Assembly: GCA_030141605.1 (NCBI GenBank)
Contig: JAQGDQ010000057.1
Coordinates: 248,001 to 312,000, forward strand
Source of the DNA: Tubiluchus corallicola
Taxonomy: Eukaryota > Priapulida > Priapulimorpha > Priapulimorphida > Tubiluchidae
DNA length: 64,000 nt
Reading direction: 5' to 3'
The position numbers were made by a program, and so were the translations under genes. Below are positions 1 through 35,300 of the stretch, piece after piece (the stretch's first letter is position 1; the number at the start of each line of letters is the position of its first letter). Below the pieces are notes generated by a model. It searched no databases and was not told the DNA's origin. It worked only from the letters and a program-made list of their open reading frames with translations.

Positions 1-700
1 GTTATTAAGTTGCAATCTTTCGAGTGCAAACCTAAGTCTCAATTTGGACATTGTTGACGAAAAACTGCGTGATGTTGTGCCTAGTAATGACCGATTTCTT
101 TCCATGGTCAATCACTTTTTAGGTCATTTAGGACGTACATTTAACTTTTTCCTGAGAAAGCCGTTGATTCTGAACTTGCGTTTTCCTAAGTTACTTTTCT
201 AGTTGCTTGCTTTCTAAAATTTGTTGAATTATATTGTAAGAATTCTTTATTCGGCTGGGCGAAAACTTTCGTAAAAAAGTTTTGAAACGGCCACAGGAAA
301 CCCTTTGTCCCTTGTTCTTGCAAATTTATGAACGTGAAGCCATTTCTCACTTACTGTGATTAAAGCAAACAATGTCTAATTATTTCTTGTTTTTGTTTTA
401 CAATGGAAATTTATGCAGATATTATTCAATTTTAATGTAGGCTGATGATACCGAGAACAACTCGATTGGTGAAACATTAAATTTTATTAAATAATAAGCC
501 TGTGTACTTATTGCTTTAAAAGAACAGTCCAGAAATTATATTCCTAGGAATGTGTGCTCTAGGGCTAGAAGTAAACATTTTTCGGTTAAGATACGTTTAG
601 TGCACGTTCAATAATCAGTGTACATGTTTTTCAATCTCACATTGTTAGAGGAGAGTTGTAATTACTGAAAGAACGACATCGTCTTAAAACAAAACAAAAC
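1..700. other. Gene-free left edge, probable retroelement remains
   Basis: No exon that joins to a neighbour was found. A frame is open on the + strand from base 2 to about 203, but its product is not recognised and it may be the tail of a retroelement. It is followed by an AT-rich stretch containing CTGATGA at 442-448 and GAAAC at 471-475. That arrangement resembles the hairpin found near the ends of many Penelope-like and LINE elements. The assignment to a retroelement is inference. Confidence 0.3.
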
Positions 701-704
701 TGAT

Positions 705-1180
705 TAATTGAAAGTAAAATTTAAAGGCCTACATAATAACAACAGACATTGAAGTTTTTAACGCATTATTATGATTACCCAAAAAATCATGGTTATTTTT
801 ACATAAAAGAAACTTATAAATTAAACAGCTTACTTTTTTCTGGCGCGTTTCGAATGCATGCATTGCCGTAAAGATCGCCATGTTTTACGTTTTTGGCGCG
901 AGAATGACGTACGAGGTACAGAAAGCGTCTTTGGTTACCGATGTTTATTTACCGATCTTTGGCGATCTTGTGACTGTACTCATTACGTTATTGATCTCAC
1001 GCAGCGAAAAATGGCAGTTTTTCAAATTTAGTACCGCTAATAATGAACTGATTAAATATCAAAAGAAACGAGTTTTACAGGAAGTGCAACATAAAATAAA
1101 TTAATTATTCGTAGTGAGAGTAGGATTTTAGGTTGTAAAAGCTTAAATTATAGTAAAGGTTTAGTTTGACTTTAAGTATG
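705..1180 (-). repeat. Dispersed repeat family R1, copy 1 (inverted relative to the other three)
   Basis: The reverse complement of this stretch matches 4195-4675, 57140-57545 and 62680-63135 over most of its length. Shared landmarks include a GGTAACC box, ACCTCGTACGTCATTCTCG and TTCGAAATTCGCCAGA. The copies have diverged by scattered substitutions and small indels. No coding capacity is shared between copies; the short open frames differ. The copy ends about 60 bases before the ATG of the small membrane-protein gene, so it may supply part of that gene's promoter or 5' leader. It is probably a non-autonomous DNA element or SINE; the class is not determined. Confidence 0.75.
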
Positions 1181-1241
1181 GCTATTGCAGCATAAACACG
1201 TACTTTCAGATTCTTATCCCTTGTCTGATATACTTGGCACC

Positions 1242-4200
1242 ATGTTTGTCATTGGATGGTGTTGTGTTCTGTGCTATGCGATCGTTTTATATATCTTCAA
1301 GAAGTACATATTTCATAGTGGTGAGTACATATGCTTTTTGGTTGACCATATCTAGCTAAAATTCACAAATTTAACAGAATAAAAAACTGCTATTTTAGTC
1401 TGCTAAATAATAGTAATAGTGATGATGATAAAAACAAAGAGAGTGGTAACAACGACAACAGCAACTGCAACAGCTATTGCACAGAATTTCTGGACTGAAA
1501 TGTCACTTTAATCTTGCTAGGCAGTTTACTTAGAAGGACCATCCGTGTGAATTAACGCCAACACATATTGTGCGTTGTAAATCGTCACAATGCACTGACA
1601 TCGCAATAGTAAATGTGAATGTAAATCTGTGAACACATCAGTGAATGTGCATCAGTGAACTCACTTAAGTCACTTTAGTATCTTATAACGAGTGAAGAAC
1701 TTGTGATACGAACATTTTTTCACAGTCAGCTCTCTGTCAGGGTGGCCACCAGGTGGCTTGTATCAATGCAGGTTCTCGAAGTTCTGCGGAATATGCCATC
1801 AGGTGAGTGTGTGGAGATGACTCAAATGACAAAATGGAAGCAGTTCTCTTAATTTGTAGAAAACGTTGTGCAAGCAAACGTTTTCCGAGTCCTTTTTTCG
1901 ATTGAGGGGACCTGGAGATAAGTGAACGTGGAAAGTAGGGAAAGGAACAGAGATCGAGGAACTGAGGCACTAGGACGTATCTAGTAGGTTACTGCTTAGG
2001 ATATGAGGGTAATGGAGGAATGGCGTTGGTGTAATAGAGAAGAAGCAAGCTGAGAGCTGTTGCTAATCAAGTACTTCAAGGATGTTGTCCACAATACAAT
2101 GTAGTCATAATTCGATCAGGCCCTACTGCTCACTCCATTATCAGTATTGCAGCCAGAATTCCCCTTTCAAGTCCGCATTCAGTTTGATGAACCTATGATG
2201 AGGAATATCCAGTGATGTACTAGTGCTGACGAGCAAAAGGTTACAGGACGCAACACCTACTCAGTGAGTTTGGATATTTGTGGAATTAGTCATTGTTAAA
2301 GGAGTCGTTGGTGCTCGAAAAAGGCCAACGAAGAACACGTGAGATAGCATTTGGGGATGTCCAGTCTTCACAAAGACAATTGAACCGCTTAGAACTACGA
2401 AATTATGAAATATCAGCTATTTGATGATAGCTGAGAAACGAGCAGGCTTGGTTGAAGACAGATTCTGTTTGGCTACACAAATTTGGTGTCGCCATTTGTC
2501 GATAATCGCCATGAAAGCGTTTGTTTCACTTCACTTGTTTATTGTTGATAAGCAGCTGTTGTCTTAGAAAGCCAACATATGGCAGACAAGCCAGACAAGT
2601 TCGGTCTGAAGTTCTGGATGGCTGCAGGTGTTCAGAACAAATACATGTTCAACAGCTTCTCATACGTGAGGAAAGATGAAAAGCAGGAAAGGAAACAACA
2701 GTGTACCAATGCACGTTGTTTTGAAGCTTATGGAGCCAGTATTCGTAACCTGTGACGATCATTTCACCTCACTGGATCTTGCTCAAAAACTTGCCAAAAA
2801 GACAGTCTTCTGAGCACTATCCGTCAAAACTGTAGTAAGCTACCCAAGGCCGCAAAGGCACGCTAAGTGTTGCATTCTACAAGAGCATTCAGGCATGCTT
2901 TAGAAAGTTTGACAACAGTTTTGATAGCCAATAACTAGTGCAAGTCATCAAGAAAGTACTATGCATAGTACTATGCAACTACGAAGTGCAGAAATTGTAC
3001 CACTGACAGCTGCAGCATCTGGGGGAACGTGGTATGTGGAAAGTGTAAAAACAAACGCTGCCCTACTCGTACTGTGTAAATTGTTTCAATTGTACACTCC
3101 ATATCTCGGTTTGCCGGATCTCGCTTTTAGAAGAATCAGAAGAATCAGACCCAGTCCGTTGTTTCGTGAGCTGGCAATTAGTTGGCAGGCCGTCACTTTG
3201 TTTACATCATTACATCAGTGTAACCACGTGCATATCTCTATAAGATAAAAACATAGAGTGAATTATGCGGAGTTATTTGAGTCAATTGCCGATAGTTTTT
3301 ATACACTTTTGCTTAGGACCTTCTAGACGTTTTTGAGACATTTAGGCGTTTGACTCTACATTCCCGTGAGTCTAATACACGGCGCCTACTGTATTAGCAT
3401 AGTATCGGTGAATACGGACAGACAACAAATTTGGACCGATGTCACTTTTGTCCAGCAAACCACGATACGAGTATATGGATTCAGTTAATATTCTGATGTA
3501 TCATTAAAATTTCAGTACAATTGAATTATAAGTATTAGTCTTATTTTTGTATAGGGATGAAAACTATGATTAATGTCAATTGATGCTTGCTGGTGCTTCT
3601 TGGTAGTATACTTTTACAGTCCTAATAGATGGTGGTTGTGCAAGCAGATTCGGCTTTCCAGTTAAGTTGATAATCTAGTTAATCATCAAAATCGTGTCAG
3701 ATTTTCTTGCTGAGCTGCTTTGAATTTTCTGACCATTGGAAGGTTCAGTTGTACAATATCACTTGCTTTTGTTACCTGTCTAGTTCCTTTTTACTTTCAG
3801 ATGTGGATGAAGAAGATCCCAACTTCCCACTGCCTGTTAGGTACTTGATCTTTATATTGTTATGTAATTTCAATTTTAATAATTTTCTATTTAAAATGTA
3901 GGTTTTATTTCTAAGCAGATGACTGAATCCCAAATACCCAATCCTCTGCTGTATTGACGATTTTATGTACATAATTAATAGGATTCAATGGCTAAAATTA
4001 TCTTTCGTGAAATATCAATAGAAATTAGAAAATCGTGGATTTTGCTTCTTTATTCAACACCGAAAAATTGCGCAATAACAGGCATTCGAAGAATTGATAA
4101 AACTGTTCACTGTAAAGAAAGGAAAATTACGTTTACTATAGAAATAATTTTAATGGCAAGAACTGGAAGTCCGCCACCACATTCCACATGTTATCACTTA

Positions 4201-6780: not shown

Positions 6781-29532
<22,752 letters not shown>

Positions 29533-32389: not shown

Positions 32390-35300
32390 ATGGCAGAATC
32401 TAACGCTGAAATAGGAGCAACAGAAACCGTAGAATTGGAAGATGGCGGACCAGGTGCTGTATATCAAATTTTCGTTACAATGGAGGAACTTCTTGACAAG
32501 CTGAAGTTACTGAATTATGATGCTGAAGTAACAAAAAACAGACACATCGGTTTAAAACCCATATCCAGGTAACAAGGCGTACTATAGAATTTACAAATTC
32601 ACATGTCTACTGAGGCGTATTCTTTACGAATATTTAGTGTGTAATCAGTAATTAATATGCTTATATTTGTAGGCATTACTTTGTAATCCAGACAAATCCC
32701 GGTGAGCAGTTTTTTATGTTTGTGTCAATAGCAGCTATGTTGATACGAATGTGTGGGAAGCGCTTTGCTCAACCATCAGAGGTGAGTTTCTCCGTAAAGA
32801 TAAACGAATAACTGCATACAATTAAATGTTTTTATTGTTTAAAGTAACAGTACCTAAAATTTTTTATTACTAGGATTTTTATGTATATTGGCTATGACTT
32901 TCACTTATGTACTTGCATTATGTACTTAATAATTGATAGTGCAATGCAAACTATTCAGTGTTAGTCTACAAAACATGCAAACCTTAACTGAGGTGTACGG
33001 CATTACAAGGTTTGTATCATGGTAGTATCATATCATGACCTAGGTGTACCGTTACAGCCCTAACTGAATGTAGCTAGGCCTACTGTAGGTTATGATCACT
33101 CATTTTATTCATGTATGCAGGTTGGAGTAGTATTGATTAATTTAAAAATTATATTTGAACTGAAAGAAAAACTTACATGAAAAATTATTGTGAAACACAA
33201 AAATTAGTATCAACATAGAAGAATAATAACTGACCTCATATAGTAATTACATTATGTATTGTAATTGTATTGCACACAATTTTTGACAAAAGCATCGGCA
33301 ACACAGAAGGTTTATGTACAGATTACGTCATTCTTGTACATTCTGGCATACATTAGTAACAGATAGGTAACCTTAGTTACTTTGCATAGAGCCTCTCCTA
33401 TCACATTATTAATAGGCTAGTTCCAAAGGTATTATAATTTTCTCAAAAGGATTTGCTTCTTTAAAGTTGACTTTCGGCTCGTTAGAAGTGGAAAACTGGA
33501 ATGACTATGTGCCAGTGTGACATTGTTTAGTAAGTTTCAAATAATTATATGGCTTTCAAAAGTTTCTCATTAAATTGTTAGTAGGGATGTTACCTAAACT
33601 GAATTTACAAACCGAAACCGAAATTTATGAAACATAGGAAACAGAAATGAAACCGAACCGGAACATTTTTGCAAAAGCAACTACTATTTAAACTGAAAAA
33701 AAGAAAATTCTGAAATATGTAAAATATTTTGTTTTTTTGTTTGTTTGCTTTTATTTACTGCTAAAAAATTCAAATACAGAAAGTACAAGGAGGTTTTATA
33801 GTATAGAACCTCAAGTTTGATGGAGTGACTTACCTTAGAAAATCCTTTTTGGATCGGTTTCCTTTAATCTTGTTGTAATCCTTTTGGATCAAGTATTCTT
33901 AATGACTAATGTTTAAAGATCATAATGCTTCATCAAACATTAAACAAAATTTATTTTCTAAATATTTTGTAGCCTATTTTTCGTAAATTATAAAATTAAA
34001 ACGTGGTTTGGTAATTCGGTTGATTGGGCCTGAAGACTAAAACTTCGCAGTCAGCACTGAAGATACGGCACATTGCTGGTAAAAGCACTTAACAAGCTGT
34101 TATGTAACAAAATTTTCACTTTATTTGAACTAATTTAACCGAGATTTTTCAGTCGTTTTTGACTTCTAAGAGAAAAGAATAGTTGTTGTTGTTGGCATCC
34201 TTCTGTCTCGGAAGACAATGGAGTGTGCGCCAAGAGAGTCAGTTATTGATCACATTGATGGAGCTGCAGCGTCGACTGTGGCTGAGCAGTCCGATCCTTG
34301 AACCACTGGAGTGGCCTCTCCAGGGCGCACACCTGGGCAAGGTGTATGAAGATCCCGAGTTGCCTAGACAACAGGAACCCACTCTCTTCCTCCCTGGTGT
34401 AGTCCAAAGGAAAGCGGAGCAATACGTTTGGCACCAGGTTGGCTGCAGGAGCTGCCGGAGTCAGTGAACATGCTGCACTGGTTCGCCTTCGGGGCTCCAC
34501 TCCTGATTTGGAAGGTTTACTCCTCTACATGTGGCCGTTGGGTCACTTGACCTCCTCCGCCCCCTCTAGCCGTTTGCTGCTTGTGCAGCTCCTCCGCCGA
34601 GTATCGAGATACAGTGTGGGCATTCCGCAAGCCTATAGCACCTGGTATTCCTCGGCGGTCACCCATCCAAGTACTAACCAGGTTCTATGTTGCTTAACTT
34701 TGGTGATCAGACGAGAACCGGTGTTTTCAACGTGATATGGCCGTAGAGAAAAGAAAAGTAAATTGGATAAATACTAGTAAAACCTCGAAAAAATGATACC
34801 GAAACCGAAAGTGCAATTATCGGAAAACCGAAATGAAAATTTCGTTTTGGTAACATCTCTGTTTGGTAGTAAAAATTTCCTACGTTTTAGGATGATGATC
34901 CAAACAATCTTGTTGCAGACATACTGGCTGAGCTCAGGAATTTGGTAAGTTATTATTATTATTATTATTATTATTGATTTTATTTCAGAAATTTAAGGTC
35001 CATAAAACAAAAATAAAAATACAGTACAACTAAAAATGTACAGAGTTAGTTTACAGAAATATACAAGAAAGAGTTAGTTAGAATGGACACATGAAATTCT
35101 TTCCCACGTCTTAAAAATGTTCGATCTAATAAATTTATCACTATTACACAGCAAGTCATATCACTATTACACACTGAAAAACAGCTTACTTCTGAACTAA
35201 ATGCAGCTTTCCTACATATACAGGAAAAATGTGGTACATTGTAGCTAACATGCATTTGGCTTGCGCTATTGCAACTAGGAAGATTAAAGAATTCTCTAAT

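Follow-up and report, generated by a model that had tools for sequence, protein, structure and literature searches.

A 5S-headed SINE of Tubiluchus corallicola, probably derived from an internally deleted LINE

The window analysed here, a stretch of 64,000 nucleotides (contig JAQGDQ010000057.1, positions 248,001 to 312,000, assembly GCA_030141605.1) from the priapulid Tubiluchus corallicola, contains at 34169-34755 on the minus strand a retroposon made up of a 5S ribosomal RNA (rRNA) head, a body matching the 5′ leader of a long interspersed nuclear element (LINE), the 3′ end of a LINE and a (CAA)n tail, and flanked by an 11-bp target-site duplication (TSD). The window also holds a LINE, called LINE-A here, and a genome search with the LINE-A leader found a second family, LINE-B. 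We consider the retroposon to be a 5S-headed (SINE3-type) short interspersed nuclear element (SINE) that arose from LINE-B by way of an internally deleted copy, followed by a jump to 5S rRNA, and give this reading a probability of about 0.73. The ways in which SINEs acquire heads and bodies have mostly been inferred from end products, while here one genome holds the autonomous LINE, headless derivatives of it (one with the junction of the SINE), the 5S source and the finished SINE.

Architecture of the element

The whole element is covered by 5S sequence (34748-34629), LINE-B 203-529, two nucleotides, LINE-B 3939-4050 and the CAA tail (Table 1). The head matches the full Rfam model RF00001 (1-120) at 34748-34630 on the minus strand (94.3 bits, E = 3.9e-19), and the two copies of the 11-bp TSD, TTCTTTTCTCT, occupy 34755-34745 and 34179-34169. 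The LINE-B-derived blocks are separated by 2 nt in the SINE, or stand 4 nt apart when the comparison is made with LINE-A, and the 3′ block common to SINE and LINE is ~110 nt long. The fold of the GTCT-TCCG-AGAC motif is weak, with z scores of -0.22 in the SINE, -2.15 in LINE-B and -0.99 in LINE-A. The SINE consensus is without a T-run of 4 or more.

Table 1. Features of the retroposon and of the LINE in the same window
Feature	Position	Strand	Remarks
5′ TSD, TTCTTTTCTCT	34745..34755	-	terminal CT overlaps the initial CT of the 5S-like head
5S rRNA-derived head	34629..34748	-	Rfam RF00001; comparison with host 5S genes
GCTT microhomology at the head/body junction	34629..34632	-	5S 3′ end TAGGCTT and LINE-B leader AATGCTTGCGG
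Body, LINE-B 5′ leader (LINE-B 203-529)	34304..34632	-	window copy 92.7% against L081
GT at the internal-deletion junction (LINE-B 529, GT, 3939)	34302..34303	-	identical junction in headless L097
LINE-B 3′ end (end of the open reading frame (ORF) and short 3′ untranslated region (UTR))	34194..34301	-	contains GTCT-TCCG-AGAC, a potential small hairpin
(AAC)n tail	34182..34193	-	common to LINE-B; LINE-A has (GAC)n
3′ TSD, TTCTTTTCTCT	34169..34179	-	sequence
LINE-A: 5′ leader, single ORF with APE endonuclease and reverse transcriptase (RT), (GAC)n tail	17707..21718	+	ORF 18530-21700; Pfam

The parental LINE

Positions 124-452 of the SINE align with the LINE-B leader over 329 nt at 92-93%, and positions 455-574 with the LINE-B 3′ end over 112-124 nt at 93-95%, in both cases with six of six LINE-B copies. 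Against the majority sequence of five LINE-B copies, the SINE consensus has 14 differences in 442 compared positions, and the tail repeat is (CAA)n in both LINE-B and the SINE. Identity among the six LINE-B copies is 97.9-99.5% in all 15 pairs, and a 1078-codon open frame is intact in three of the six fetched (L078, L079, L081). In contrast, blastn of the SINE against LINE-A gives 151 nt at 76% (E = 9e-27, LINE 18115-18265) and 47 nt at 79% (E = 4e-6, LINE 21625-21671), the other matches being weak and short (E of 0.02 or worse). Judged by these alignments, the part of the SINE outside the 5S head is from LINE-B over essentially all of its length, and LINE-A is a sister or cousin family and not the parent; the SINE aligns with LINE-A because the latter is a cousin with a conserved leader block. 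Pfam finds APE endonuclease and RT (RVT_1) domains in both families (tested on L078 for LINE-B) and, in the same search, no RNase H match in either protein. A C-terminal CX2CX12HX4C motif was read by eye, and the two proteins are 58% identical. A PDB search returned only L1, R2 and general RT relatives.

An earlier note, made from the window alone, had described a 5S head and an 11-bp duplication, both of which stand, and had matched the body and the last ~40 bases to the LINE at 17693-21717, viewing the element as an internally deleted copy of that LINE with an acquired 5S promoter. When the alignment was run, the body scored 121 against LINE 17681-18580 (1000 dinucleotide shuffles: mean 20.6, sd 2.2, maximum 32) and 44 against the LINE 3′ end (shuffle maximum 34). 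Both resemblances are thus real, the shared 3′ block being ~110 nt rather than ~40, and copies collected from the genome showed the best partner to be LINE-B and not the window LINE. The construction it envisaged, a 5′ leader and a 3′ end behind a 5S promoter, is borne out by LINE-B 203-529 and 3939-4050, whereas descent from the LINE at 17693-21717 fails, as that is LINE-A, the sister family with 58% protein identity and a (GAC)n tail.

Just ahead of the ORF, the LINE-A leader contains a non-coding block of ~120 nt (18324-18443) that is 80-87% identical to LINE-B in 40-nt steps, while the alignable pieces of the ORF reach only 64-72%. The block folds at -59 and -51 kcal/mol, values taken without a shuffle control, and is possibly a functional RNA element.

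Join between the 5S head and the leader

The consensus head (118 nt) differs from the host 5S gene L104 at 1 nt. Eight of the ten host 5S matches fetched end in GTAGGCTT (TAGGCTT/TTT) and then a T-run; in the remaining two, L109 and L110, SINE-like sequence follows. The SINE tracks the 5S gene up to the last base before the T-run (GGCTT) and then reads GCGGGATGCC (TAGGCTT/GCGG), and LINE-B has AATGCTTGCGGGATGCC at the site of the join (compare ATGCTTGCGG), such that GCTT is common to both parents. A join of this kind, with a GCTT overlap at the 5S end, is what an RT moving from a LINE RNA template to the 5S rRNA 3′ end would produce, and we infer that template jumping made it.

The SINE family

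A whole-genome search found at least 40 near-full copies, counting the one in the window, with identities of 92-100%. Their consensus is 562 nt long, with a mean copy divergence of 3.0% (1.2-4.5%) that is biased low because these 40 are the copies nearest to the window copy. TSDs of at least 8 nt occur in 21 of the 40, compared with 42 of 1951 mismatched flank pairs. A 21-nt word spanning the internal junction has 190 exact matches genome-wide, a count that includes the window copy and the headless L097, and its reversed control has 0. By exact pattern, 160 headed copies have the derived tail, and among the 100 matches listed of these 160, lengths are 411-416 in 56, 417-421 in 11 and 424-428 in 33. 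A second subfamily (type II, L111-L120) has an internal junction shorter by ~12 nt; nine of the ten fetched copies carry the junction type of the headless copy L096, CTGGAGA/CGTTCAAGG, exactly or with a single substitution, and in the tenth, L116, the motif could not be found. Of the 12 positions of the type II gap in the alignment, ten are gapped in all ten copies and the remaining two in nine. In its 5S-derived head, its LINE-related 3′ end and its dispersed copies with TSDs, the family has the features of SINE3 elements, and with a body from the 5′ UTR and a tail from the 3′ end of one LINE it also has those of a bipartite LINE-derived SINE.

Behind two copies, L045 (C1698:3261-4231) and L036 (C258:3450-4215), the 3′ part of the copy is repeated in tandem (query positions 353-574 and 353-569; 466-576 and 466-569), which may have come from end-to-end template jumping or from tandem duplication at a later time.

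Headless, internally deleted LINE copies

Short internally deleted elements (SIDEs) keep the 5′ end of the LINE and have no foreign RNA polymerase III (Pol III) head. The window copy, which starts with 5S, falls outside this definition, and five other copies fall within it (L054, L084, L093, L096, L097). A search with 301 nt of the LINE-B 5′ end, considering the best 40 of 1560 candidates and therefore giving a lower bound, located at least 16 places with that 5′ end: L078-L082 are full or near-full, L083 has part of the ORF deleted, and there are ten others. In L084, L093, L096 and L097, the leader is joined directly to the LINE-B 3′ end, while in L092 and L098 (the same as L099 and L100 by common flanks; ~940 nt each fetched) it is joined to the middle of the ORF. 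L054 is a LINE-A copy with the same plan as the SIDEs. Exact TSDs flank L054 (10 nt), L084 (11), L093 (12) and L097 (7); that of L096 is not informative because the copy sits in an ATT repeat.

The breakpoints of six deletion events were compared, namely L083, L084, L092, L093, the SINE/L097 lineage and L098, leaving out L096 (a second SINE-lineage junction), L094/L095, L099/L100 (the L098 locus) and the LINE-A copy L054. Taken as independent, five of the six have leader endpoints inside 45 nt (517-560), a window picked after the data were seen, with two endpoints ambiguous by several nucleotides (L084, ~557-568, 560 used; L093, in a repeated block, 540 used). Uniform placement over 302-3900 produced such clustering in 0 of 1,000,000 trials, and over 302-1000 in 134 of 300,000. 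The LINE-A SIDE, L054, breaks at the position homologous to the cluster. A hairpin, GTCACTG-CTT-CAGTGAC, lies at the cluster, and a 61-nt stretch there folds no better than shuffled sequence (z -0.65). The clustering supports, without proving, the presence in the leader of a preferred landing site for a jumping enzyme.

One locus by its flanks, L094/L095 (C1491, C982) is a leader-only LINE-B fragment with a further internal deletion, which ends near LINE-B 552 at GACAGAAACAAC, resembling the LINE 3′ end GACAGAAGGATGCCAACAAC. With the leader only and no clear TSD by eye, it was not counted among the SIDEs.

L097 and L096 as candidate intermediates

L097 has exactly the junction of the SINE, CACTCCAGTG/GT/TCAAGG. 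At seven SINE-derived sites it has the LINE-B states (site 215 varies within LINE-B), and it has 322C and 383C in common with the SINE. Its identity to LINE-B is even along its length (94.4/93.2/93.7%), whereas L096 is a mosaic, with 98.5% in the leader, 95.1% in the body and 91.9% in the tail, and has T at position 15 as young LINE-B does. A tree of 53 sequences groups the SINEs with L096 and L097 at 76.8/92 and the SINEs with L096 at 98.1/98 (approximate likelihood-ratio test/ultrafast bootstrap). The tested ancestral tail is present in 0 headed copies by a long pattern and in 1 by a short one (408A in C1714, one of the 40), and the short pattern together with the LINE leader matches exactly L084, L093 and L097.

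Having the exact SINE junction along with mostly ancestral states, L097 looks like an intermediate, and we read it as a better candidate than L096. The latter, with a young leader on a SINE-like body and tail, looks like a recombinant and was dropped as a direct ancestor.

A probable ribozyme at the LINE 5′ end

The LINE leader has matches below the gathering score to two hepatitis delta virus (HDV)-like ribozyme models, HDV-F-prausnitzii (23.8 bits, gathering score 44, E = 0.048) and drz-agam-1 (24.4 bits, gathering score 37, E = 0.0084), at corresponding places of the LINE-A and LINE-B leaders (17707-17900; L078:217-380). Pairing by hand places a P1 helix at the 5′ end of the element, the terminal bases pairing with a strand that follows the core, GGUGUC/GACACU in LINE-B and GUAGUC/GAC(A)UAC in LINE-A; these sequences differ between the two families, yet each pairs internally. 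The 5′ end of both families is thus a probable HDV-like self-cleaving ribozyme. If so, 5S would have swapped a ribozyme-defined start for a Pol III promoter.

Proposed origin and alternatives

The SINE was probably assembled in three steps. LINE-B RNA would first give rise to SIDEs retaining the 5′ leader together with ~80-115 nt of the 3′ end, structures that are seen in the genome and whose mechanism of formation is presumed, with one lineage, represented by L097, having the exact deletion junction of the SINE. The LINE RT, copying the RNA of such a SIDE, would then reach the GCTT of the leader and jump to the 3′ end of host 5S rRNA with a 4-nt overlap, as deduced from the exact join. In this exchange, the first ~202 nt of the leader, with the probable ribozyme, would be lost and an internal Pol III promoter gained. 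Presumably, the SINE would finally be transcribed by Pol III, and the LINE-B protein would recognize the common 3′ end and CAA tail and insert copies by target-primed reverse transcription.

Several observations weigh against this origin. Support for the grouping of L097 is moderate, and L096 lies within the SINEs without support in the tree. The headless L096 has SINE-specific states and the second junction type, which is also found in headed type II copies, and all four combinations of head and junction are present; as both junctions occur with and without a head, there must have been recombination or repeated events, and the nine of ten type II copies with this junction make the point on recombination stronger. 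At position 340, L097, L096 and seven of ten type II copies have C, and type I and LINE-B have G, a pattern that fits a simple tree poorly, and L097 may be an old recombinant in its own right. The test used revealed no TSD of 8 nt in 19 of the 40 copies, the pattern counts are of exact matches and miss mutated copies, and transcription by Pol III, template jumping and LINE-B-driven mobilisation are all inferred from sequence. The mosaic L096, its T at position 15 and the four combinations would also suit a SINE born in one insertion with two jumps, from the LINE 3′ end to the leader and on to 5S, with no headless lineage and with L097 and L096 as later recombinants. We regard this as unlikely, since L097 is evenly diverged and lacks the seven SINE-specific states (with the variation at 215 noted above), and headed copies with an ancestral tail amount to one by the short pattern and none by the longer.

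DNA recombination or repair acting on copies in the genome, and not RT, might instead have joined the pieces. Sequence alone cannot discriminate between the two, and the authors of the R2 SIDE study rate recombination as the likelier source of those elements (PMC3414825); still, the head join falls on the last 5S base before the T-run, as expected for an RNA end, and L054, L084, L093 and L097 are insertions with TSDs, leaving this a decidedly poor prospect. Splicing of LINE transcripts would account for the clustered 5′ breakpoints of the deletions but is very improbable and was rejected, the breakpoints being scattered over more than a single nucleotide and having no common GT donor or AG acceptor by eye. 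Descent of the SINE from LINE-A has in its favour that both blocks align significantly, and is barely credible and refuted by the match to LINE-B: 76-79% over 198 nt in two blocks, with nothing elsewhere beyond the short blastn matches and a GAC tail, stands against 92-95% over ~440 nt and the CAA tail. A further, tentative suggestion is that LINE-B makes, or is cut to, a leader RNA ending at ~520-560, around the hairpin GTCACTG-CTT-CAGTGAC, and that the RT habitually jumps to RNA 3′ ends. Jumps onto the leader RNA would repeatedly yield SIDEs with a near-identical endpoint, in LINE-A as well, and at least one jump onto the 5S rRNA 3′ end would yield the SINE. If true, one end-to-end jumping reaction would explain both the middle body and the head of the SINE, and how SINE bodies can derive from LINE leaders.

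Relation to known elements

In 2018, Kojima reportedly described bipartite LINE-derived SINEs, with a middle from the 5′ UTR of a LINE and a tail from its 3′ end, that form by internal deletion followed by head acquisition, with a partner LINE of the RTE or Vingi clade. A paper by Szafranski from 2004 is said, going by its title, to concern a Dictyostelium 5S retropseudogene made when a LINE RT jumped template to 5S rRNA; that element is titled a retropseudogene, whereas here there is a family of at least 160 headed copies. The 5S-headed bipartite LINE-derived architecture is already known, and what this genome adds is a record of successive steps, with the joins resolved. As the joins can be placed at or close to single-nucleotide precision and all stages lie in one genome, the bipartite-LINE route and 5S template jumping become directly testable. 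The family is not named in the titles and abstract openings among the literature matches listed, a search that did not cover Repbase, and may be catalogued already.

The published systems are compared here through passages of the papers cited. GymnSINE of antbirds, mobilised by AviRTE, joins a 5S head to bipartite RTE parts, and AviRTE has a 5′ UTR of ~800 nt, an ORF of ~3.2 kb and a 3′ UTR of ~40 nt, which is the same plan as that of the SINE and LINE-B in another host and with another LINE family (PMC4844689). What the present SINE has beside those passages on GymnSINE is a candidate headless intermediate, a 5S end that is exact and overlaps by GCTT, and deletion endpoints that cluster. For the hagfish SINE1-1_EBu, the same route of deletion and then head acquisition has been proposed, with a middle from the LINE 5′ UTR, a tail from the LINE 3′ end and intermediates that may be uncharacterised or lost; its head is 7SL and not 5S (PMC7245038). 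The earlier note had treated borrowing of the 5′ leader as an exception, and in view of these bipartite SINEs, some of them 5S-headed, it is not one (PMC7245038, PMC4844689). In HaSE3, a 5S head is combined with a tail that also occurs in an RTE-related SINE (PMC3272025), and a discussion from 2026 attributes to RTE LINEs the tRNA and 5S chimeras from which SINEs are generated (PMC13174262). SIDEs of R2 have been published, along with jumps to small RNAs (PMC3414825), as have other short internally deleted elements, Persaeus/Zenon (PMC6740152) and NARTc/RIME (PMC4035085). L054, L084, L093, L096 and L097 resemble these in fusing a LINE 5′ end, with its probable ribozyme, to the 3′ end, while the window element differs in having 5S in place of the LINE 5′ end.

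Duplicated stretches in the assembly

Near-identical stretches with identical flanks lie on different contigs (C2264/C1787/C2138 and C1491/C982), which suggests uncollapsed haplotypes in the assembly.
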